DNA from: Bacillota bacterium
GTDB lineage: Bacteria; Bacillota; SHA-98; Ch115; JABLXJ01
Length of the DNA stretch: 34,467 nt
Direction: 5' to 3'
Assembly: GCA_013178125.1 (NCBI GenBank)
Contig: JABLXJ010000021.1
Coordinates: forward strand, 1 to 34,467
The notes beneath the pieces were generated by a model that was not told where the DNA came from, made no database searches, and saw nothing but the letters and a program-made list of their open reading frames with translations. A program made the position numbers and the translations under genes. Below are positions 1 to 5,625 of the stretch, in pieces; within the stretch, counting starts at the first letter, position 1; the number at the start of each line of letters is the position of its first letter.

Positions 1-110
1 GCAAGAGCGGAGGGGAAACACCTGTACCCATTCCGAACACAGAAGTTAAGCCCTCCAGCGCCGATGGTACTGCACTGGCAACGGTGCGGGAGAGTAGGCC
101 GCTGCCGGAT
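1..110 (+). rRNA. rrf: 5S ribosomal RNA, 3' part
   Basis: The stretch carries the conserved 5S core (CCGAACACAGAAGTTAAGC near position 34, then CGCCGATGGTACTGC and GGGAGAGTAGGCCGCTGCC). The 5' end lies just outside the window. A run of six T follows at 113-118, which can end the rRNA transcript. It marks the 3' end of an rRNA operon. The exact 3' end is uncertain by a few bases. Confidence 0.93.
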
Positions 111-129
111 GCTTTTTTATGTACATCGC

Positions 130-157
130 TTGACTGTGTTAGATTTTATGGTATAAT
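130..157 (+). promoter_or_regulatory. Sigma-70-type promoter of the glutamate synthase leader
   Basis: TTGACT (130-135) and TATAAT (152-157) are separated by 16 bp, a near-consensus housekeeping promoter. Transcription would begin at about 164, just before the paired hairpins and terminator at 182-283, so the leader is transcribed from here rather than by read-through from the rRNA operon. Confidence 0.8.
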
Positions 158-181
158 ATAGGTAAAATCGCATTTCATGCG

Positions 182-232
182 AAGGTGCAATGGCGTGCCT
201 TTGCCAGTATGACGCGGGCAACGACGCCCGCG
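182..232 (+). promoter_or_regulatory. ANTAR-type antitermination RNA (two hexaloop hairpins)
   Basis: Hairpin 1 pairs 182-188 with 195-201 around the six-base loop AAUGGC (189-194). Hairpin 2 pairs CGCGGGC (213-219) with GCCCGCG (226-232) around the six-base loop AACGAC (220-225). Both loops have A at position 1 and G at position 4, the recognition rule known for ANTAR-domain targets (the EutV/NasR class). The 3' arm of hairpin 2 is also the 5' arm of the terminator at 225-278, so the two structures exclude each other. Binding of an ANTAR protein would hold hairpin 2 and permit read-through into the glutamate synthase gene. The likely partner is the ANTAR regulator at 3636-4232. Structure is read by eye; the regulatory role is inferred from the family. 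Confidence 0.82.
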
Positions 233-283
233 GCAGGAGTGTTATGGTATGTACTTATATACCCTCCTGTCGCGGGCGTTTTT
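225..283 (+). terminator. Intrinsic terminator in the glutamate synthase leader
   Basis: A 15-bp stem (225-239 with 264-278, one G-U pair) is extended by an inner GGTAT/ATACC stem (246-250 with 259-263) and followed by TTTTT at 279-283. It is a very strong Rho-independent terminator. It stands about 140 bp upstream of the glutamate synthase start, which suits a conditional attenuator. Confidence 0.88.
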
Positions 284-420: not shown

Positions 421-2046
421 ATGAGCTTTAGTACCGGTATCAACTCTACGGCGGCAACGGGCACAAGGAACAGGACGCCCAACAGCGTCTGTTCATTCAG
501 CGGCCTCTGTGTGACCTGTATTGAAGGCTGCACGGGGTTATGTGAGGTTGGCCGCTCAGCAGTCAGGGGACGGGAGGTTATATACCCCAAACCCTACGGG
601 AAAATCACGACGGCGTCTCAAAAGGATTACCCGATCGACTTCTCGCATTTCAACATCCTCGGGACCGCGGTGGGTGCCCAGGGTGCCGAGGCGGATAGCG
701 ATAAGGCGACATTCCCTGCAGTGGACGTGGAACAGCTGGTTGGGGGCTCCCCAGCATCGGGCGGGGACGCCATAAAGCTCCGGTTGCCGGTGATCATCTC
801 CGCGCTTGGCTCGACGCAAGTGGCCAGGGATAACTGGGAGGGGCTCGCGATAGGGGCTGCCATCTCCGGCACGATCCTGACAATAGGGGAAAACGTGTGT
901 GCGATGGATCCCGAGGCCGAGTTCAAGAACGGCCAGGTTGTCAGGTCCCGAGATATGGAGCGACGGGTGAAGCTCTATAAGGACTGGCATGATGGCTACG
1001 GGACAATAGTTGTACAGGCTAACGTCGAGGATACGAGGCTGGGCGTGCTTGAGTATGCCATCGAGGAGCTTGGTGTCGATACCGTCGAGATAAAGTGGGG
1101 GCAGGGCGCAAAGGACATCGGCGGCGAGGTCAAGCTTTCGTCCCTTGAAGATGCCCTGAAGATGAAATCCAGGGGTTACATAGTCATGCCGGACCCTGAA
1201 GACCCCGAGGTCGAGCGTGCTTACAGGCAGGGGGCGTTCCGGGAGTTTGAGCGCCATTCTAGGATCGGTATGGTGGATCGTGAGTCGTTTATCTCCAGGG
1301 TTGAGCAGCTCAGGAGGGCCGGGGCCAAACACATCTTCTTAAAGACCGGAGCCTACCGGCCTTCGGACCTGGCGCGCGCCCTCAGGTATGCCTCAGATGC
1401 CCAAATCGACCTCGTAACGGTTGATGGGGCGGGCGGCGGGACTGGGATGAGCCCGTGGCGCATGATGAACGAGTGGGGGATACCGACTGTCTTCCTTGAG
1501 GCCCTAGTGGTGGATTACATGGACCGGCTCAATGGAAAGGGCGCATACCTGCCTGATATTGCTATTGGCGGTGGGTTTGCCCTCGAGGACCAGGTGTTTA
1601 AGGGACTTGCGCTTGGGGCTCCCTATGTGAAGGCCATCGGTATGAGCCGGGCCCCGATCACGGCGGTCATGGTCGGGAAGACCATTTCAGGGCTCATCCA
1701 GGACGGGAAGCTGCCACCGGATCTCGCAGGATACGGTGGAGACGTCGAGCAGGTTTTCGCCAGCGCCCACCTGCTGCGCAAGAAATATGGTGAGGCCTTC
1801 GAGAACATCCCCGCATCAGCGGTGGCGCTCTTCTCCTATTTCGACCGCTTGTCATATGGCCTGCGCCAGTTCATGTGCGGTGCGAGGAAGTTTGCCCTGG
1901 GGTATATAACCAGGGACGACCTGGTGGCCTTGACCGAGGAGGCGTCCAGGTTGACGGGTATCCCGTACGTCACCGAGCTCGATCGCGAGGAGGCTTACAG
2001 CATTCTCGAGGGCGAGGGGAGCGAACGGATGGTGGGAGTTGCTTAA
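421..2046 (+). CDS. gltB: Glutamate synthase large-subunit FMN domain protein (GltB-like)
   Basis: The 541-residue product matches the central FMN-binding domain of glutamate synthase, which makes glutamate from 2-oxoglutarate and ammonia. Visible family motifs are IKWGQGAKDIGGEV, the loop VDGAGGGTGMSPW, and AIGGGFALEDQVFKGLALGAPYVKAI as an FMN-barrel segment (the last quoted over two neighbouring stretches). The N-terminal glutaminase domain of classical GltB is absent, and no glutaminase or beta subunit lies nearby, so this is the stand-alone (archaeal-like) form. The N terminus carries C24 and then C30-x2-C33-x3-C37-x3-C41, possibly an Fe-S or metal site. The ATG at 421 is preferred to the in-frame TTG at 400 because GGGGAGAGGG precedes it at a good distance. 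Expression is probably gated by the ANTAR leader upstream. The electron donor and nitrogen donor are not shown by the sequence. Confidence 0.88.
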   Translation: MSFSTGINSTAATGTRNRTPNSVCSFSGLCVTCIEGCTGLCEVGRSAVRGREVIYPKPYGKITTASQKDYPIDFSHFNILGTAVGAQGAEADSDKATFPAVDVEQLVGGSPASGGDAIKLRLPVIISALGSTQVARDNWEGLAIGAAISGTILTIGENVCAMDPEAEFKNGQVVRSRDMERRVKLYKDWHDGYGTIVVQANVEDTRLGVLEYAIEELGVDTVEIKWGQGAKDIGGEVKLSSLEDALKMKSRGYIVMPDPEDPEVERAYRQGAFREFERHSRIGMVDRESFISRVEQLRRAGAKHIFLKTGAYRPSDLARALRYASDAQIDLVTVDGAGGGTGMSPWRMMNEWGIPTVFLEALVVDYMDRLNGKGAYLPDIAIGGGFALEDQVFKGLALGAPYVKAIGMSRAPITAVMVGKTISGLIQDGKLPPDLAGYGGDVEQVFASAHLLRKKYGEAFENIPASAVALFSYFDRLSYGLRQFMCGARKFALGYITRDDLVALTEEASRLTGIPYVTELDREEAYSILEGEGSERMVGVA

Positions 2047-2249: not shown

Positions 2250-3581
2250 ATGGACATCGCTGAAAGAAAGGAAATACTGAAACGCGCCAGAGAGCTGGAT
2301 GTCAAGTTCATACGCCTCCAGTTTACGGACATCCTCGGCGTGCTCAAGAACGTGGCGATCACTGTTGACAGGCTGGAGGAGGCGCTTGATGGAGAGGTTG
2401 CATTTGACGGCTCCTCTATAGAAGGCTTCGTCCGGGTGGAGGAGTCGGACATGCTCCTGATGCCTGATCTCTCGACGTTTGCGCTCTTCCCCTGGAGGCC
2501 CCGGGATGGCTCGGTTGCGCGATTGATCTGTGACATCTACAACCCTGACGGCACGCCCTTTGCCGGCTGCCCGCGCGCGGCATTGAGACGGGTCCTGGAC
2601 GGGGCTCAAAAAGCCGGATACGAGGTGCATATAGGGGTTGAGGGGGAGTTCTTTCTTTTCCATACTGATGAGGCCGGCAACCCCACCACCACAACTCACG
2701 ACAAGGGGAGCTATTTCGACCTGACCCCTGTTGACCTCGGGGAGAATGCCCGGCGCGATATGGTTTTGACCCTTGATGAAATGGGGATCAGGGTCCAGGC
2801 ATCCCACCACGAGGTCGCCCCGGGGCAGCATGAGATTGCGTTCAGGCATGACGAAGCGTTGAGGACCGCAGATAACATTGTGACATTCCGTTATGTGGTG
2901 CGTGCCATAGCCCAGCGCCACGGCCTATACGCGAGCTTCATGCCAAAGCCGATTTACGGTGTCGGCGGCTCGGGCCTGCACCTGAGCCACTCGATCTTTT
3001 GCGATGGACAGAATATCTTCTTCGACCCGAATGGGAAATATAGGCTCAGCGAATCGGCGTTCCATTATATTGGTGGGCTGCTCAGCCACAGCCCCGCTTT
3101 GACTGCCATCACAAATCCCACGGTGAATTCTTACAAACGCCTGGTCCCGGGCTTTGAAGCCCCCAGCTATATAGCATGGTCCTTCCAGAACAGGAGCCCC
3201 CTGGTTAGAATCCCATTCCAGCGGGGGAAGGCCACTAGAATAGAGCTACGCAGCCCCGACCCGACGTGTAACCCCTATCTCGCGATCGCCGCGTCCATAA
3301 AAGCTGGCCTCGACGGGATCGGACGCCGGATCGAGCCGCCCGAACCTATTCAGGGCAGCACTTACGGATTAACAGAGGAGGAGCGGCAGCGGCTCAACCT
3401 GAGACGCCTCCCGCGCAACCTTATGGAGGCCCTGGGGGAGCTATCGCGCGACGAGGTAATAAAATCTACGCTCGGCGATCACATCTATAACAAGTTTGTC
3501 CAGGCGAAATGCGTGGAATGGGAGGATTATTCCACGAAGATTCATCAATGGGAGCTGGATGAATACCTGGCGAAGTTTTAG
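2250..3581 (+). CDS. glnA: Type I glutamine synthetase
   Basis: The enzyme joins ammonia to glutamate using ATP, the main ammonia-assimilation step, as a cytoplasmic dodecamer. At 443 residues it has the length of the GSI-alpha class. Signature stretches are FDGSSIEGFVRVEESDM (52-68), EGEFFLF, the nucleotide/glutamate loop GSGLHLSHS, and NSYKRLVPGFEAP near residue 300. Arg62, which in the Bacillus subtilis enzyme confers glutamine feedback inhibition, is present at exactly position 62. No adenylylation-type insertion of the beta class is evident. The ATG at 2250 follows GGGAAGGTGG, and an upstream in-frame extension has no homology and is rejected. The gene has its own promoter and is followed after 54 bp by the ANTAR regulator gene, probably on the same transcript. 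Confidence 0.97.
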   Translation: MDIAERKEILKRARELDVKFIRLQFTDILGVLKNVAITVDRLEEALDGEVAFDGSSIEGFVRVEESDMLLMPDLSTFALFPWRPRDGSVARLICDIYNPDGTPFAGCPRAALRRVLDGAQKAGYEVHIGVEGEFFLFHTDEAGNPTTTTHDKGSYFDLTPVDLGENARRDMVLTLDEMGIRVQASHHEVAPGQHEIAFRHDEALRTADNIVTFRYVVRAIAQRHGLYASFMPKPIYGVGGSGLHLSHSIFCDGQNIFFDPNGKYRLSESAFHYIGGLLSHSPALTAITNPTVNSYKRLVPGFEAPSYIAWSFQNRSPLVRIPFQRGKATRIELRSPDPTCNPYLAIAASIKAGLDGIGRRIEPPEPIQGSTYGLTEEERQRLNLRRLPRNLMEALGELSRDEVIKSTLGDHIYNKFVQAKCVEWEDYSTKIHQWELDEYLAKF

Positions 3582-3635: not shown

Positions 3636-4232
3636 ATGCGCCGAAGAGAAGTATTCATAGCTGACAAGAGCGCCTCGTCGCGCCAGAGGTTGAGGAGGAT
3701 CCTCACTGAGGCAGGGTATGCGGTTGTGGGAGAGGCGGCGGACGGGTCTAGCGCCCTTCGAGGCATCAGAAGCCTCGAGCCTGAGGTGGTGGTGCTGGAT
3801 TCGGAGCTCCCTGCCCTCAACGGGTTTGAAGTTGCCAGGATTGTTGAGGAGGACCATCTCGCTCCCGTCGTGCTCATAGCCTCCCAGACGAGCTGGGAGT
3901 TTGTGGAGAAGGCCAAGGAATCCTCTGTTTCCGCCTATCTTGTGCGCCCCGTCAGCGAGCGAGACCTGATACCCGCGATCGAGCTGGCCATCGTCAATTA
4001 CGAGCGGAGGAGCAGGCTCCAGGATAAGATCAGGGAGCTGGAGGAGAGCCTCGAATCTCGCAAGGTAATCGAGAGGGCCAAGGGTGTGTTGATGAAAACG
4101 ATGGGCCTGTCCGAGGGCGAAGCCTACCGGCTCATCCAGAAACAGGCCATGGATAAGTCGACCTCGATGCGCGCGATTGCTGAGGCCATACTCCTCACTT
4201 ATGAAATCAAGAAGAAGGGGCGGGGTGGTTGA
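3636..4232 (+). CDS. ANTAR-domain response regulator (antiterminator)
   Basis: A 198-residue protein with an N-terminal receiver domain (about 4-122), a helical linker (123-142) and a C-terminal ANTAR RNA-binding domain (about 135-192, with [21 protein letters not shown] and the IAEAILL helix). ANTAR proteins bind paired hexaloop hairpins and prevent transcription termination. The receiver is atypical: the phospho-acceptor Asp55 and the pocket residue Asp10 are present, but the second acidic residue is Lys11 and the invariant Lys near position 104 is Arg. Phosphorylation may therefore be weak or replaced by another signal. No histidine kinase gene is nearby. The gene lies just after glnA and 3.4 kb from the ANTAR-type leader, so control of glutamate synthesis is the natural inference. 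Its 3' end overlaps aroF on the other strand by 26 bp. Confidence 0.93.
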
Positions 4233-5292: not shown

Positions 5293-5331
5293 AAAAAAAC
5301 AAAAACCTTCTCGCCTCAAGGACGAGAAGGT
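5293..5331 (-). terminator. T-box-controlled terminator of aroF
   Basis: On the minus strand ACCTTCTCG pairs with CGAGAAGGT (5323-5331 with 5305-5313) and is followed by TTTTTG and TTTTTTT. It lies immediately after the T-box sequence, as in all transcriptional T-box leaders. Confidence 0.9.
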
Positions 5332-5625
5332 AATCTCGCGGTACCACCTTGATTGGCTGCACCAGCCTGCATCTCTGCTATCGCTCATTCGTCGTTCGAA
5401 GTACGGGGCAGATTCCCATCTACCCGATACCTGCTCCCCCGTAACGGCGGGAGATCCGTCCTGACCTACTTGCCCGGCCTGCCTTTACGAACGCGCACCG
5501 GCCAGGCGTTCAGCTGGAAGCTCGAGGGCGAACTTCAATCGCGTTCCCGTCATCGTGCTCGCACCTTGCCACGACTCTCTTCGACGGGCCCCGCGACCTA
5601 CTTTTCCCCGTCACAGCCTTTCCCG
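5293..5625 (-). promoter_or_regulatory. T-box riboswitch of aroF, probable tRNA-Phe specificity
   Basis: Read on the minus strand, the leader contains GGGGAAAAGTAGG (the AGTA element of stem I), then AGAGAG, the specifier region GAAGTTCGCCCTCGAG, and finally the T-box sequence AGGTGGTACCGCG (5337-5349), directly before an intrinsic terminator. The specifier codon by position is TTC (5530-5532), that is Phe, which suits an aromatic-pathway gene. Uncharged tRNA-Phe would stabilise the antiterminator and switch aroF on. The identity of the specifier is read by eye from the spacing to the conserved elements and is less certain than the T-box itself. Confidence 0.92.

Follow-up and report, generated by a model that had tools for sequence, protein, structure and literature searches.

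A predicted ANTAR target RNA upstream of glutamate synthase in a Bacillota genome, and a candidate glnA-linked regulator with a degenerate receiver

A glutamate synthase gene of a Bacillota bacterium (GenBank assembly GCA_013178125.1, contig JABLXJ010000021.1) is preceded by a leader that is, very probably and on the strength of comparative sequence analysis, a bona fide ANTAR target RNA, with a REC-ANTAR protein encoded behind glnA as the presumed antiterminator for glutamate synthase. The gene lies near one end of the stretch of DNA analysed here (the window, 34,467 nt, forward strand). ANTAR control of glutamate synthase is in principle already published, and the window provides a new and well-supported example of it.

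The window opens with a 5S rRNA gene (positions 1-110), and the leader begins directly behind it (window 1-160), an arrangement also seen in the sister genome (L003). The leader promoter is at 130-157 on the plus strand (TTGACT-16-TATAAT, with an extended -10; 11/12 in a consensus scan); it is kept in L003, and similar promoters precede the corresponding leaders of two order-level relatives, G002 and G003. Downstream of it on the same strand are two hairpins. P1 (179-204) has the sequence GCGAAGGUGC[AAUGGC]GUGCCUUUGC, with its hexaloop at 189-194, and P2 (213-232) has the sequence CGCGGGC[AACGAC]GCCCGCG, with its hexaloop at 220-225. The loops, with A1 and G4 in both, are as an earlier note on this DNA had described them, and together with stems of at least 3 bp in each hairpin they match the definition of an ANTAR target. 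The 11-nt spacing given in that note rests on a 7-bp P1, the count used there, and becomes 8 nt for the full 10-bp stem. Either count falls inside the 5-12 nt linker range of the eut leaders, in which linkers of 3 or 14 nt failed (PMC3369931). The strong terminator that the note had placed on the second hairpin was also found: an intrinsic terminator on the plus strand at about 223-283, with 17 pairs and a five-U tract at 279-283, uses the 3' arm of P2 as its 5' arm and is mutually exclusive with P2. In L003, G002 and G003, too, the gltS leader has a terminator that draws on the P2 arm. A small hairpin at 168-182 was considered as a further part of the switch and dropped, as the sister genome does not conserve it.

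The end of the 5S rRNA gene at 110, just upstream of the hairpins, might suggest that they are simply the terminator of the 5S rRNA transcript, joined by a chance hexaloop hairpin. This is scarcely credible, given the near-perfect promoter between the 5S rRNA gene and the hairpins, the presence of the same kind of leader in front of the gene in G002 and G003, and the shuffle control, in which the complete window was dinucleotide-shuffled 150 times and never yielded such a motif with a terminator built on the P2 arm. In the window itself, the motif scan returned three loop-pair motifs on the plus strand and none on the minus strand, and the leader motif is the only one coupled to a terminator.

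Folding of the full leader gives -64 kcal/mol with the terminator formed, which is 6.3 standard deviations better than shuffled sequences (z = -6.3), and forcing P1 and P2 to form costs 13.4 kcal/mol. This is what one would expect of a default-off switch whose antiterminator must be held in place by a protein. In the ANTAR mechanism that we propose, transcription would start near 164 and, with nothing bound, P2 would open into the 17-pair terminator, so that the transcript stops near 283, ahead of glutamate synthase. An active dimer of the glnA-linked REC-ANTAR protein would grip G4 of both the P1 and P2 loops and keep P2 closed; the terminator could then not form and glutamate synthase would be transcribed. 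Binding, antitermination and nitrogen limitation as the signal are the steps that we infer.

The gene regulated in this proposal encodes a single-domain glutamate synthase (PF01645, domain match; 421-2046, plus strand). It is followed on the same strand by a promoter at 2185-2213, which lies right after a terminator-like hairpin and would serve the glnA-regulator unit. The type I glutamine synthetase gene glnA (2250-3581; 443 aa, TIGR00653 above cut-off) and, behind it, the REC-ANTAR gene (3636-4232, plus strand; PF00072 and PF03861) are located as the earlier note had reported. A second ANTAR element was sought in the gltS-glnA intergenic region and none was found there. The neighbours of the regulator gene are glnA and a DAHP synthase gene, with no kinase. 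A T-box leader at 5315-5623 on the minus strand, which scores 90.6 bits against an Rfam gathering score of 93, precedes a DAHP synthase gene.

To place the leader among related sequences, 80 loci carrying the same glutamate synthase were fetched, and a covariance model was built on an alignment of 23 dual-loop elements from relatives, each coupled to a terminator. The model was trained on other genera, leaving out the window and its sister species. The earlier note had proposed a covariance search of the genome and its relatives; over all 3.5 Mb of the genome, this model gave the window leader as the top match (33.3 bits, at 184-230), followed by one at 21.9 bits. Three matches (L115, L116 and L162) were discarded on reading, as they had no P2 or lay within coding sequence. 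Among the 80 loci, which are related to one another, so that a p-value on their counts is no strict probability, elements of at least about 20 bits occur in 32 of 38 with a nearby ANTAR gene versus 1 of 42 without; with the training loci excluded, the counts for these related loci are 17/23 and 0/41. When the scan was run with the loops unconstrained, A1 and G4 were found in both loops of 25 of 389 terminator-coupled hexaloop pairs, where about 1.5 would be expected at equal base frequencies. Three loci from Actinomycetota/Solincola MAGs (L037, L061 and L069) have ANTAR-domain ORFs upstream of glutamate synthase, the N-terminal part of which does not align to a receiver, and the ANTAR element sits between the ORF and the glutamate synthase gene.

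Pair counts from the first scan are partly circular, because that scan selects for pairing and for A1/G4. In a set of nine leaders from the same genus and order (set A2), which is less circular, although some of its rows come from the covariance search with the hairpin register set by eye, 98.8% of pair cells are paired. The covariation score of these nine leaders is 0.475, compared with 0.283 for shuffles and at most 0.219 for slid controls. The orthologous leaders pass the check that the earlier note had proposed for refuting its reading, which concerned covariation of the stems and conservation of the loops: three pairs of P1 are changed on both sides, P2 shows one-sided changes only, and G4 is invariant in both loops, with position 1 being A or, in a few cases, G. 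The combination of an invariant G4 and a variable position 1 fits the EutV-RNA structure, in which Tyr164 stacks on G4 and A1 has no specific contact (PMC8934654). A G at position 1, with G4 kept, is found in L138 (the gltS leader of G003), L141 and L145, and in L138 it is present in both loops.

A leader with a terminator and alternative folds is also the generic design of an attenuator, and the T-box on the minus strand means that the window has another leader of attenuator type. The element might then be a riboswitch, a T-box or the target of a non-ANTAR protein, with incidental hexaloops. We consider this very unlikely: an Rfam search of the leader matched no family, the loop G4, the closing C-G pairs and the P1 covariation are kept while the rest of the leader varies, and ANTAR genes co-occur with the elements. 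The earlier proposal that glutamate synthesis is switched by RNA antitermination thus gains support at the sequence level from the top genome match, the covariation of P1 and the co-occurrence with ANTAR genes.

The ANTAR domain of the glnA-linked regulator scores 78.2 bits against a Pfam cut-off of 27.3 (PF03861). In an alignment with EutV (6wsh), the regulator keeps the RNA contacts R142, K143, K149, E160, Y164 and M172 with identical numbering, and the coil residues L128, I132, L135 and L139 of EutV are also found at identical numbers. Some backbone contacts of EutV are altered (R168Q, N173D, R175S and R177S), which counts against its proposed role. The receiver, a point that the earlier note had missed, lacks three of the five phosphorylation-site residues: the positions corresponding to CheY D12, D13, D57, T87 and K109 are D10, K11, D55, A82 and R104. 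It therefore does not have the complete site of an EutV-type receiver (two metal-binding acids, Asp, Thr/Ser and Lys). Nearly all of the glnA-linked ANTAR relatives examined have a degenerate receiver as well, and a complete site was found in only one of 78 REC-ANTAR proteins, a second, kinase-adjoining ANTAR protein of the same genome. The phospho-accepting Asp is replaced by Glu in 18 of the 78, and hardly any of them retains the second metal-binding acid.

This second ANTAR response regulator (C1:126561; locus L002, G000:C1:125061-128216) has an intact receiver, and its gene neighbours are those for a GAF/HisKA_2 kinase and an ABC transporter. It could be the cognate protein of the leader, which would still be an ANTAR target: an ANTAR domain is present, its receiver site is complete, and recognition of dual-loop RNAs runs via conserved residues. 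It could also compete with the glnA-linked protein. That assignment is unlikely, as its gene has the kinase and transporter genes as neighbours rather than nitrogen genes, and as G002 and G003 retain the glutamate synthase leaders with a glnA-linked ANTAR protein only. These two genomes have one ANTAR protein each, which makes the glnA-linked protein the sole candidate there. A hairpin near the second ANTAR gene (L002, about 1826-1851) was considered and rejected: its loop reads GUGCGA, and it is an ordinary terminator.

With the glnA-linked protein as the preferred regulator, the next point concerns its input. A receiver without key phosphorylation residues is most likely activated via a protein or metabolite partner and not by a histidine kinase, and we consider it probable, from the residues present, that phosphorylation by a kinase is not the input and that the protein resembles AmiR rather than EutV. 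The genome holds two PII genes, and glutamine synthetase or PII as the partner is a guess. A broader and tentative idea, which we regard as possible but doubtful, is that the ANTAR regulators linked to glnA make up an extensive pseudo-receiver branch that works without phosphorylation, in which glutamine synthetase itself or a PII protein would bind the receiver and report nitrogen status. If true, this branch would be an RNA-level counterpart of the Bacillus GlnA-TnrA/GlnR control. The pseudo-receiver trend may be less well known than the rest of the finding.

Two more leaders of this kind are present in the same genome. One precedes a second glutamate synthase operon (C5:62033, minus strand) and the other precedes asnB (C1:137826, minus strand); both come from the genome covariance search, and the matches were read. 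The second glt operon codes for a split glutamate synthase: its genes encode an FeS/FAD oxidoreductase, a class-II amidotransferase protein and, as the third component, a full Glu_synthase protein. Both gltS and this second operon are also preceded by such leaders in the sister genome G001 and in G002 and G003. In G001 asnB has one too, and in G003 one stands ahead of a gene that was judged by eye to encode glutamate dehydrogenase. Within this genus, P1 of the leader of the second glt operon has an irregular loop, which counts against the proposal. Taken together, the leaders suggest that the glnA-linked regulator probably switches the second split glutamate synthase operon and asnB too, and so would run a small amide/ammonia-assimilation regulon.

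These results add a clear multi-genome case of predicted RNA antitermination over nitrogen assimilation in a little-studied Bacillota lineage, with asparagine synthase included among the predicted targets, and the near-general loss of a complete phosphorylation site in glnA-linked ANTAR regulators raises the question of how nitrogen is sensed. ANTAR target RNAs were defined by Ramesh et al. (2012), who reported them ahead of glutamate synthase genes in Desulfotomaculum reducens and within a nitrogen regulon of D. acetoxidans (PMC3369931). The leaders described here share with the Desulfotomaculum RNAs the dual A1/G4 hexaloops, a P2 that overlaps the terminator, a glutamate synthase target and a nitrogen regulon of several operons. 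They differ in belonging to another lineage and in their placement, with elements before gltS, the second glt operon and asnB and none before the glnA-regulator unit. NitR, an ANTAR protein of Clostridium saccharobutylicum, uses antitermination to induce GS/GOGAT genes when nitrogen is limiting, according to a review's account of Stutz et al. 2007 (PMC6316151); as far as that account goes, the two systems have in common an ANTAR protein tied to GS/GOGAT genes and a proposed antitermination. With EutV of Enterococcus faecalis, the regulator shares the REC-coil-ANTAR architecture and the main RNA-contact residues, but the EutV receiver is intact and driven by the kinase EutW, whereas that of the regulator is degenerate. 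In this respect it is like AmiR of Pseudomonas aeruginosa, another ANTAR protein, whose pseudo-receiver is not phosphorylated (PMC3369936, PMC8934654). Control of AmiR lies with AmiC, and an AmiR-type system is marked by a degenerate receiver, which is seen in the regulator, together with a bound partner protein.
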